From NCBI GenBank assembly GCA_020630065.1, contig JAHDCC010000008.1, forward strand, positions 91,553-155,552: 64,000 bases of DNA, written 5' to 3'. This DNA comes from Acidimicrobiales bacterium. Its GTDB lineage: Bacteria > Actinomycetota > Acidimicrobiia > Acidimicrobiales > SZUA-35. Positions 28,629-33,047 of this stretch are shown piece by piece. The position numbers and the translations under genes are program-made. Position 1 is the stretch's first letter. Each line of letters starts with the position of its first letter. The notes under the pieces were generated by a model. It saw only the letters and a program-made list of their open reading frames with translations, did not search any database and had not been told where the DNA came from.

Positions 28629-28701
28629 GCCTCCTTAGCTCAGTCGGTAGAGCGCTTCCATGGTAAGGAAGAGGTCAACAGTTCAATTCTGTTAGGAGGC
28701 T
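28629..28701 (+). tRNA. tRNA-Thr (GGT)
   Basis: GCCTCCT/AGGAGGC acceptor, anticodon stem CTTCC-ATGGTAA-GGAAG, TTCAATTC T loop. Confidence 0.97.
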
Positions 28702-28702
28702 C
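28679..28702 (+). repeat. direct repeat copy 1 (tRNA-Thr 3' end): cagttcaattctgttaggaggctc, putative att
   Basis: 24-bp exact match to 29444..29467. Confidence 0.9.
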
Positions 28703-29443
28703 TGCATAACACCTGGTAGAAGCCTTTTGCTAGGTTCCCAGGATTCGTTAGGGCGTCTGGCTTAGCCAAAGTTCTAGCCATCGAAAGAGAGCTAAGACTC
28801 CGTATGCGAATCAAGAACCGCTTCGAATTGATTGATGCAGGTGGTTTCAGGGAGACGGCTGAATGTCGGTCGGCTATCCAAGAGCTCTTTATTATCTCCC
28901 ATATGGGAAGGTCCAAGTCTCTAAGCCTTCTTCAAGAACTAAGCTTTTCTAGCATGGCGGTTAACTTCTTGGAGTAGATTTTTTCTTTTTGAACGACGCC
29001 TTCGATGCGTGATAGGTCCGCATGCTCGGAAGTAGGGTTTGGTTCGTAGTAGATACCCTTTTCTTGCGTGGGACGAGATCTTCTTGGTACTCAAAAAGTC
29101 GATTGTAGAGTCTTGGCGAAATTCCAACGAAGGGGGTGAAGGTTACTTTATTGGACTCCTCGTTTTCTATGGAAACTGAATCGTCAAACAATTGATCTGC
29201 GAGGCTTTTGGGGAATGGCTGCATATATACAACTCGTTTGATACCTGCTCCAACGATCATCGGGGTACATTCATGGCAAGGGAATGTCGTCACAGTCAAT
29301 TGTTTGTCTTGAGTTGAGACCCCACGTCTAGCAGCGTCGGTTAGTGCACTTTGTTCTGCATGCATTGAGCGAGAGAACTCGGGCACTACTTTTTTGGCTG
29401 CTGGGAGCATAGTAAATAAGAGGTCGGCAACTCTTTGAGATTG
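28703..29443. mobile_element. putative remnant of a tRNA-Thr-integrated element carrying a truncated AvcD-like deaminase
   Basis: Bounded by the 24-bp tRNA 3'-end direct repeat; no integrase remains. Confidence 0.55.
28804..28977 (+). CDS. hypothetical small ORF inside the tRNA-Thr-flanked segment
   Basis: Open frame MRIKNRFELIDAGGFRETAECRSAIQELFIISHMGRSKSLSLLQELSFSSMAVNFLE; convergent with the deaminase fragment. Confidence 0.25.
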   Translation: MRIKNRFELIDAGGFRETAECRSAIQELFIISHMGRSKSLSLLQELSFSSMAVNFLE

Positions 29444-29524
29444 CAGTTCAATTCTGTTAGGAGGCTCCACGAATCCCACGTCAGAGACAGTCGCTCTCGC
29501 CGACTCAACCGACCAAACCTCCAC
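28961..29524 (-). pseudogene. truncated AvcD-like anti-phage dCTP deaminase (C-terminal deaminase domain only)
   Basis: 'MHAEQSALTDAARRGVSTQDKQLTVTTFPCHECTPMIVGAGIKRVVYMQPFPKSLADQLFDDSV...VTFTPFVGISPRLYNRLFE'; HAE and PCxxC zinc motifs; no N-terminal NTPase domain; ORF start lies outside the second repeat. Confidence 0.75.
29444..29467 (+). repeat. direct repeat copy 2 of tRNA-Thr 3' end, putative att
   Basis: cagttcaattctgttaggaggctc, identical to 28679..28702. Confidence 0.9.
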
Positions 29525-29596: not shown

Positions 29597-30127
29597 ATGG
29601 CGATGGCGTATATCGATGAGTCGCACCGTTCGGGTAAGTATCTGATCTCGGCGGTAGTCACGCTGGAAAGTAGACAACCTCAGCTTCGTGCTGATTTACG
29701 ACGGTTGATCTTGCCAGGCCAGCAGCGGGTTCATTTTGTGAATGAATCAGACCGCAGGAAAAAGCAGATTTTGGACGTAGCGGCTGAGTCCTCAGTGAAG
29801 AACGAGATGTGGACAGCTACCGGGTTCAAACAGAACGCGGCGCGTATCGCAATTTTTGAGGCGATGATTCCGCTGCTCGTTCGGGATGGAGTCGACCGTT
29901 TCATTGTGGAGTCGGGCGGAGCGCAGGACAAGAAAGATAGGGCTGTTCTGGCGGGTACGTTGCGGACACATGGGCTTAGCGCTGCTTACCGCCATGCCCG
30001 ACCACAGGAAGAACCGTTACTGTGGCTGCCGGATGCATTAGCGTGGTGTTTCGGGCGGAACAAACAATGGCGAAGCGAACTGTATCGGCGTGGGTTGGTC
30101 GCTAGCCACCAAAGAATCAGAGCCTAA
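29597..30127 (+). CDS. DUF3800-like protein
   Basis: 'AYIDESHRSGKYLISAVVTLE...QQRVHFVNESDRRKKQILD...FIVESGG...WLPDALAWCFGR'. Confidence 0.65.
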   Translation: MAMAYIDESHRSGKYLISAVVTLESRQPQLRADLRRLILPGQQRVHFVNESDRRKKQILDVAAESSVKNEMWTATGFKQNAARIAIFEAMIPLLVRDGVDRFIVESGGAQDKKDRAVLAGTLRTHGLSAAYRHARPQEEPLLWLPDALAWCFGRNKQWRSELYRRGLVASHQRIRA

Positions 30128-30869: not shown

Positions 30870-32278
30870 TTACCCAAGTGTCGTCCCCAAAGCTTGCAGC
30901 AGGCTCAGTAACGCCAAGAGTGCAAGAAGTGCAAATACGATTATGTGAAAGCGTCTCATAGTGGGCTTTGCTGAGGCGTCCACCGGTGACGTTTCAATGC
31001 GTGACTCGAGCCCGAACACGAGCAGCTGGCCTTCTTCGTATGGCATCTTGTCGTGGCCGGAGATGTGAAGTCGTTCAAGGCCAGGTCGACGGTTTTGGTC
31101 GGTGGCTATCTCGGTCACTTCGGGGGCGTCGCATCCTGGGTTGTTTCGGATATTTAGAGTTTGGATTCGGTCGTGTTGAGATAGTGTTCGCAGTAAGGAA
31201 GGCATCCTGTCCGCTTCGATGTGGTTGCCTGCGAGGTCAAGGCGGACGAGGTTGTGAAGATGGCGGGCGATTGCGGCTGCCCCGCTGCCGCCGATTTGGT
31301 TGTACTCCAGATCTAGATCTGTGAGCAGGTTGAGCTGTTCGGCGATTTCGGTTGCCCCGATGTTTCCGATCATGTTGTAGCCAAGGTCGAGTTCGGCAAG
31401 GTTGTGGAGGTTAGATGCAATGGCTGCTGCTCCGTCATCTCTGATCGGGTTGTGCGCCATGTTTAGTTTGGTGAGGTTGTGGAGGTTGCTTTCGAAGGAT
31501 CGTGTCCCATCATCTCCAATGTTGTTGTCGCTGAGATCTAGAGTTTTGAGTTGAGGTAACCCTTCAGCGATAGCGTTTGCCCCTTCGTTCCCGATGTGGT
31601 TGTAGTGGAGGTTGAGCTCTTCGAGGTTGTTAAGGTTGCTGGCAATCGCTGCAGCGCCGTGATGTCCGTCGTGGGTTTCGGTGAGGTCGAGTTGACTAGC
31701 CCAGTTAGTTGTTCAGCGAGTTCGACTACGCCAGCGCTCTCGATCTCGTTGCGGCCCAGGTCGAGGCTAGTGAGCTTGTGGAGGTTGTTGGCGATAGCTG
31801 CTGCACCCTCGTATCCGATGTCGTTGTACTCCAGGTGTAGGCTGGTGAGAGATGAAAGGTTATTGGCGATCGCCTGTGTGCCTTGGTCGCCTATGTTGTT
31901 GTATCGCAGTTCGAGTTCGGACAAGTTGGGGTTGCGTGCGATTGTTGCCGCACCGTCTGGTCCGATGTTGTTATAGCTGAGGTTGAGTGCGGTTAGTTGT
32001 GGGAATCTTTCAGCAATCACCTCAGCGCTGTACTCTCCAATGTTTAGACCGACCAACGCGAGCCTTTTGACGTGGTTGATGCCCGCCATTTGAACCAGAT
32101 CATCGACGGCAAGACGATCTACACAAAAACAATGTGTGAACGTGCTTTGAAGCTGTCGTGAGCGGAACCCTCTATAAGAAGTCGAACTGAGAATAGCGAT
32201 GGAGTCTGCTGGGCCGAACTCGTAGGAAACCTCTTTCAGCGAAGAGATTTTTGGTATCGACAGTTCGGCTTCTGGCAT
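30870..32278 (-). pseudogene. leucine-rich repeat (RI-type) protein with C-terminal TM helix, split by a 1-bp frameshift near 31692
   Basis: ORFs 31538..32278 and 30870..31460 plus the intervening -1/+1 frame all encode continuous LRRs (GAAAIAxNLxxLxxLDLxYNxIGxx). Confidence 0.8.
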
Positions 32279-32402: not shown

Positions 32403-32426
32403 CTTGACGTGTCATGATACGTCAAG
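32403..32426. promoter_or_regulatory. palindrome CTTGACGTGTCATGATACGTCAAG upstream of the TA operon
   Basis: 8-bp perfect arms plus central TCATGA dyad; overlaps the ORF-track ATG at 32414. Confidence 0.65.
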
Positions 32427-32446
32427 ATATGTTGTTGGATATGGAA

Positions 32447-32653
32447 ATGGTTAAGTTCAGCTCAAAGATTGAAAAGCAGAACCTCGACGACCTGCGTGCG
32501 TATGCTTCTGAGTCGAAGAAGAACATTTCTATTGTTCTTAACGAGGCAGTAGCCGAATATCTGGCATCAGTCAGAGTGCGTCCCACGTTCATCGAAGCGT
32601 CATCAGAAGTGCTTGATGAGCACGCTGAACTTCTAGACAAGCTCGCTCAATAG
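32447..32653 (+). CDS. putative antitoxin of a Doc-type toxin-antitoxin module
   Basis: Small RHH-like protein 'MVKFSSKIEKQNLDDLRAYASESKKNISIVLNEAVAEYLASV' directly upstream of doc; start is one of several ATGs between 32414 and 32447. Confidence 0.75.
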   Translation: MVKFSSKIEKQNLDDLRAYASESKKNISIVLNEAVAEYLASVRVRPTFIEASSEVLDEHAELLDKLAQ

Positions 32654-32657
32654 AAGC

Positions 32658-33047
32658 GTGGAAACGACTACATACCCAACGGTCGAAGAAGCCCTCTACC
32701 TGCATAAGGCTTTGATTGACCGGTTCGGCGGTGCGCACGGTGTGCGAGATAAAGGCTTGCTAGAAAGTGCGCTCATGCGTCCACGCTCTGGCTACTACGA
32801 AACCCTGTCACTTCAAGCAGCCGCACTACTGCATAGCCTTATCCTAAACCATTGTTTCGTGGACGGTAACAAACGAATCGGGTTCGCCTTAATGGCGACA
32901 TTCCTAAAACTCAATGGTGATTCAATAGTCGTCGACGCTACCACCGCCGAGCGTTTCATTATCGACGACATCATTGTCGGAAAAAAAGACGTTGCTGATA
33001 TAGCCGCATGGATAGAACTACACCTTCATGGACAGTCGAAGCGCTAG
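32658..33047 (+). CDS. doc: Doc/Fic-family toxin
   Basis: 'HCFVDGNKRIGFALMATFLKLNG' Fic/Doc motif; 129 aa; GTG start. Confidence 0.93.
   Translation: METTTYPTVEEALYLHKALIDRFGGAHGVRDKGLLESALMRPRSGYYETLSLQAAALLHSLILNHCFVDGNKRIGFALMATFLKLNGDSIVVDATTAERFIIDDIIVGKKDVADIAAWIELHLHGQSKR

Follow-up and report, generated by a model that had tools for sequence, protein, structure and literature searches.

When phage infects a cell with a working AvcD system, the intact enzyme drains the dC nucleotide pool, and an upstream AvcI RNA keeps it in check. For full-length AvcD both the deamination of dCTP/dCMP and the protection against phage are known, and phage infection was found to deplete the AvcI RNA and thereby to free the enzyme to deaminate dC nucleotides (PMC10511110). 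Tandem accretion of tRNA-targeted elements has likewise been described (e.g. PMC5704250, PMC5357655). Here, we analyzed a stretch of 64,000 nucleotides from an Acidimicrobiales genome (referred to as the window), in which a 187-aa ORF with the hallmarks of an AvcD C-terminus lies nearly whole within a 765-bp insertion immediately 3' of a tRNA-Thr gene. The ORF is very probably a pseudogene, namely the 3' third of an AvcD-like dCTP/dCMP deaminase gene carried in the roughly 0.75-kb remains of an integrative element located at the 3' terminus of tRNA-Thr(GGT). The features of the locus are the following:

28629..28702, plus strand: tRNA-Thr (GGT), the intact integration target on the attL side (ARAGORN; Rfam tRNA 67.7 bits)
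28679..28702, plus strand: left copy of an exact 24-nt direct repeat, which is the tRNA 3' end
28703..28785 (end approximate), plus strand: left terminus of the insertion, resembling the left termini of two tandem elements on G004:C37
28932..29062, minus strand: probable native C-terminal tail in a different frame, reading ...KGIYYEPNPTSEHADLSRIEGVVQKEKIYSKKLTAMLEKLSS up to the stop, which aligns collinearly to profile positions 504-545, the preceding part having ended at 502
28961..29524, minus strand (29524→28961): 187-aa ORF with a GTG start
29066..29392, minus strand: deaminase-homologous part (ORF residues ~45-153) with the HAE and PCHEC zinc-site motifs (NF041025 328-434/437; home-made profile 377-486/539)
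29409..29467, plus strand: right attachment remnant, consisting of a degenerate anticodon arm (ATAGTAAATAAGAGGTC), an 18-nt insert (GGCAACTCTTTGAGATTG) and the 24-nt tRNA 3' end

A sequence-only reading of this DNA had described the ORF as a truncated AvcD-like anti-phage deaminase, and profile searches bore this out. NCBIfam NF041025 (anti-phage dCTP deaminase) matched the ORF with an E-value of 2.5e-38 at model positions 328-434 of 437 and PADLOC dCTPase with 6.3e-42 at positions 432-542 of 630, i.e. only the C-terminal quarter of the anti-phage dCTP deaminases is covered, and the NF041025 score of 132 bits lies below the curated family cut-off of 400. The second-best family, ComEB, reached only 1.8e-12; the anti-phage family, and not an ordinary dCMP deaminase, was thus the best match. 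On the basis of the NF041025 and PADLOC matches, with ComEB far behind, the ORF is by homology clearly AvcD-like over its C-terminal two thirds and not an ordinary dCMP deaminase. The zinc-site motifs of the cytidine/dCMP deaminase fold are present at ORF residues ~54-58 (MHAEQ) and ~81-86 (FPCHEC), and the kept part has Q-P-F where the 'YxEPYPKS' motif otherwise shows a near-invariant E-P-Y.

The same searches delimited what the gene has lost. The ORF has no match to NF041025 positions 1-327, which confirms that the N-terminal P-loop NTPase/kinase-like domain is missing, as had been claimed; the loss turned out to be larger, since the deaminase domain is without its first half as well. The ORF matches Pfam PF00383 at positions 47-101 of 102, as compared to 4-101 for a full-length protein from another genome (G043), and the motifs S-x(4)-RQVGA and G-x-N-x(2)-P-x(3)-GG are gone together with the first half of the fold. 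In an alignment of the 12 full-length homologues that also make up the home-made profile, 60 columns are near-invariant; the ORF has lost 34 of them, located ahead of the break, and the other 26 follow it. The ORF encodes 187 aa as compared to 505-621 aa in full-length proteins of the family, and a search of the whole genome with a full-length homologue as query returned no other pieces of the deaminase gene, the N-terminal part included. Since half of the catalytic fold is missing, the encoded protein is not expected to work as a deaminase, as far as can be inferred from the fold, and deamination released from AvcI is not expected of the stub either. The 5' end of the gene is also gone, which would leave no room for an upstream AvcI RNA; the Rfam search at the locus returned only the tRNA and one sub-threshold antisense match.

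Homologues of the ORF were compared for their length. Six homologues were found among 298 genomes of the order, each 44-49% identical and lying within an open frame of 553-636 aa. All further matches in these genomes were weak (E-value 2e-8 or worse), and no short-form homologue was found in this set. Clear full-length relatives retrieved by a search of the phylum were likewise long, next to two fragmentary or short matches (G262:C9 and G145:C6), and the inspected copies from Klebsiella and Vibrio plasmids and from two gut phage-like contigs measured 505-584 aa. As the order homologues and the inspected copies are all full length, this genome would be the only one with the truncated form among the order genomes searched. 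The truncation proposed by the sequence-only reading is therefore upheld by a family match confined to the C-terminal end and by order homologues of full length, and conserved homologues of the same short length, which would have spoken for a genuine short family, were not found in the order. A scan of genome contigs for the ORF protein gave a weak Parcubacteria match only, and viral contigs contained neither a relative of the ORF protein nor an exact copy of the right end. No deaminase is encoded at tRNA-Thr in relatives of the family, i.e. the stub is not conserved in relatives; the relatives compared at the locus are genomes of other genera.

The attachment site could be defined at the nucleotide level. 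The right copy of the exact 24-nt repeat lies at 29444-29467, 765 bp from the left copy at the end of the tRNA gene, which supports the proposed tRNA attachment site, and no further tRNA-Thr remnants were found in the window. The insertion has a G+C content of 46.9% as compared to 54.5% for the window. Both of its ends resemble those of the tandem elements at the same tRNA in G004, a genome of a different genus of the same family: the left end is 81% identical over 131 bp (tRNA part included) and the right end is identical at 62 of 65 bp, with no deaminase encoded beside the G004 copy. The 18-nt insert was found in this genome (G000) and in G004 only, G004 having been compared apart from the broader sample. 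The right remnant differs from the tRNA at 3 positions, all within the 9 bp that border on the deaminase part (ATAGTAAAT vs ATGGTAAGG). Such clustering would be compatible with recombination at a cryptic att-like site inside the gene, but also with a deletion or clustered mutation.

Read along the ORF, residues 1-19 derive from the flank, residues 20-27 from the tRNA end (24 nt), residues 28-33 from the 18-nt insert and residues 34-39 from the anticodon-arm remnant. The N-terminus of the frame thus crosses the att repeat, as had been proposed, and is not native, but the boundary lies at about residue 39 and not at 27: the same right-end DNA closes a deaminase-free element in G004, and the residues up to ~39 are therefore not deaminase. 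Profile homology starts at residue ~44-48, which would place the start of native deaminase sequence between residues ~40 and ~45. A BLAST alignment of residues 22-47 to the AvcD proteins of Klebsiella and Vibrio had suggested that native sequence might run through the att repeat. We rejected this up to residue ~39, where the DNA is antisense tRNA-Thr save for the 18-nt insert and also ends the deaminase-free G004 element; the aligned part from ~40 on may be native.

At the other end of the ORF, sequence past residue ~155 is unlike the family, and an alternative minus-strand frame continues the homology collinearly and ends at 28932. Scored with a tail-only profile, the alternative tail exceeded 96.5% of its shuffles and the tail in the ORF frame only 24%; the advantage of the alternative tail is modest, amounting to about 2 bits and being equaled by 3.6% of the shuffles. 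Base composition, broken down by codon position, had its minimum at position 2 when read in the alternative frame and at position 1 when read in the ORF frame, the pattern to be expected of coding in the alternative frame. The ~30 C-terminal residues of the ORF thus probably lie outside the frame of the native tail. These data make a frameshift near 29060 likely without proving it, and a sequencing error is the other possible source of the break.

The DNA beyond the right repeat contains further ORFs. Directly past the repeat, a 176-aa ORF (29597-30127) beginning near YIDES gave no Pfam, NCBIfam or PADLOC match, although it looks like a protein of the DUF3800 type. A leucine-rich-repeat protein at 30870-32278 is apparently split into two minus-strand ORFs (196 and 246 aa) and is possibly a broken gene. 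At 32414-33047 a Fic/Doc family protein (PF02661, 3e-15) follows a small protein of 79 aa, and the two look like a toxin-antitoxin pair of the Phd-Doc type.

The same tRNA gene is occupied in several relatives. In G004, the pair of tandem integrative elements next to tRNA-Thr occupies positions 1-8661 of contig C37 (locus L024). Element B encodes a tyrosine integrase whose sequence is divided between two frames (PF00589 Phage_integrase, 2.5e-15), a HEPN/Toprim-type protein (PF18871, HEPN_Toprim_N) and a protein that matches the PADLOC candidate-defence profile PDC-M36A, and element A contains integrase fragments and a HAD-like hydrolase only. Integrase fragments of the same group occur in element A, beside an array in G061 and near one in G032. 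The 765 bp in the window encode no integrase of their own; a homologue of the G004 integrase elsewhere in this genome (G000:C78) is 42% identical, with a 378-aa open frame and one TAG inside the aligned stretch. A pattern search revealed extra copies of the tRNA 3' half in at least 8 other genomes of the family (G004, G030, G032, G033, G034, G036, G061 and G062), often in tandem at spacings of 0.7-5 kb, several units being shorter than 1 kb. Integrase-less tandem units of 0.7-0.9 kb bounded by the tRNA-Thr 3' half are found in G033:C75 (L023, 1350-2938), where one unit encodes an Unstab_antitox/ParE toxin-antitoxin pair, and in G061:C9 (L067, 543-2191), and may form a cassette-like array. In many genomes of the family the contig stops 0-900 bp from tRNA-Thr, suggesting assembly-breaking repeats. 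Antisense tRNA-Thr and 3'-half copies give rise to recurrent spurious peptides (EPPNRIEL..., RIELTTFSLP..., ENRTHDLFLTM...) and so to long false ORFs in the arrays.

The fragment stands integrated at a tRNA end, truncated and with half of its fold gone; as to the sequence of steps and the enzyme behind them, we infer the following course. An element with a complete AvcD-like gene would have integrated at tRNA-Thr by means of a tyrosine recombinase, and the integrase would have been lost in later recombination or deletion, along with the NTPase half of the protein and the N-terminal half of its deaminase fold. The gene is cut beside the right attachment site, which would have come about either at a cryptic att-like site within it or by a deletion reaching the element end, and the stub would then have decayed further, with the probable frameshift near 29060. 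The 187 open codons and the two intact zinc-ligand motifs in the kept part argue against far-advanced decay. A wider proposal, which we hold to be unlikely, likens the tRNA-Thr locus of the family to an array of cassettes. Compact single-operon units with toxin-antitoxin and defence genes, lacking an integrase and each flanked by a tRNA-Thr 3' half, would be captured and mobilized in an integron-like manner by tyrosine integrases that act in trans from other loci, and the stub would be one decayed cassette.

Three other explanations were weighed against a pseudogene. The sequence-only reading had allowed for a stand-alone short deaminase that lost its nucleotide-regulated control, starting at GTG 29524 or ATG 29410. 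The open frame of 187 codons and the retained HAE and PCHEC motifs are in its favor, but a frame that enters PF00383 only at position 47, lacks the first fold half and 34 of the 60 near-invariant positions, has a probably frameshifted tail and finds no short homologue in 298 genomes is a most improbable enzyme; with half of the catalytic fold missing, the claim of a deaminase freed from nucleotide control is not supported. The stub might instead be expressed in a non-catalytic role, e.g. as a phage-inhibitor decoy or in co-assembly with other deaminases, which we consider barely credible, as only the open frame speaks for it, whereas the genome has no full-length partner and the stub is not conserved in relatives.

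That two unrelated contig ends were wrongly joined at the repeated tRNA end during assembly is also improbable. The genome is a draft of 81 contigs, and the many contigs of relatives that stop just past tRNA-Thr mark the locus as hard to assemble, but the window is contiguous across both repeats and both element ends match ends of the G004 elements at the same tRNA. A decayed AvcD-like pseudogene in an element remnant accounts for the locus, and the dead relic named in the sequence-only reading is well supported; the defence island to which it was assigned is unsupported in this genome. The locus is best read as an integrative-element hotspot and the stub as an ordinary molecular fossil of mobile DNA repeatedly inserting at tRNA-Thr: a tRNA-targeted element once brought an AvcD-like anti-phage gene into the lineage, which did not retain the gene. 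The value of the stub is that it points to the tRNA-Thr(GGT) hotspot, where relatives hold small tandem units with toxin-antitoxin and defence-like genes, and these tRNA-bounded arrays may outrank the deaminase in interest. Caution is also warranted for motif-based counts of defence genes, which can take in dead stubs with intact-looking zinc motifs.

Compared to ordinary dCMP deaminases (ComEB, 2HVW and the T4 dCMP deaminase 1VQ2), the ORF has the zinc-site half of the fold in common, but the match is much weaker and does not cover the C-terminal extension that is matched in the anti-phage family. Unlike AvcD (DcdV; NF041025/PADLOC dCTPase), it is devoid of the NTPase domain, the N-terminal half of the deaminase fold and the 5' end of the gene; it shares with AvcD the HAE...PCHxC and KS.A..L...S...V.F.PF.G..PR.Y..LF motifs and about 40-50% identity to full-length members. 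As regards the element, the unit in the window differs from ICEs, IMEs and genomic islands in its size of ~0.75 kb and in carrying no integrase and a broken gene only. It resembles those that target tRNA genes in its insertion at a tRNA 3' end, its direct repeat and its conserved ends, and it resembles tandem-accretion islands in that relatives carry tandem units, one of them with a tyrosine integrase.
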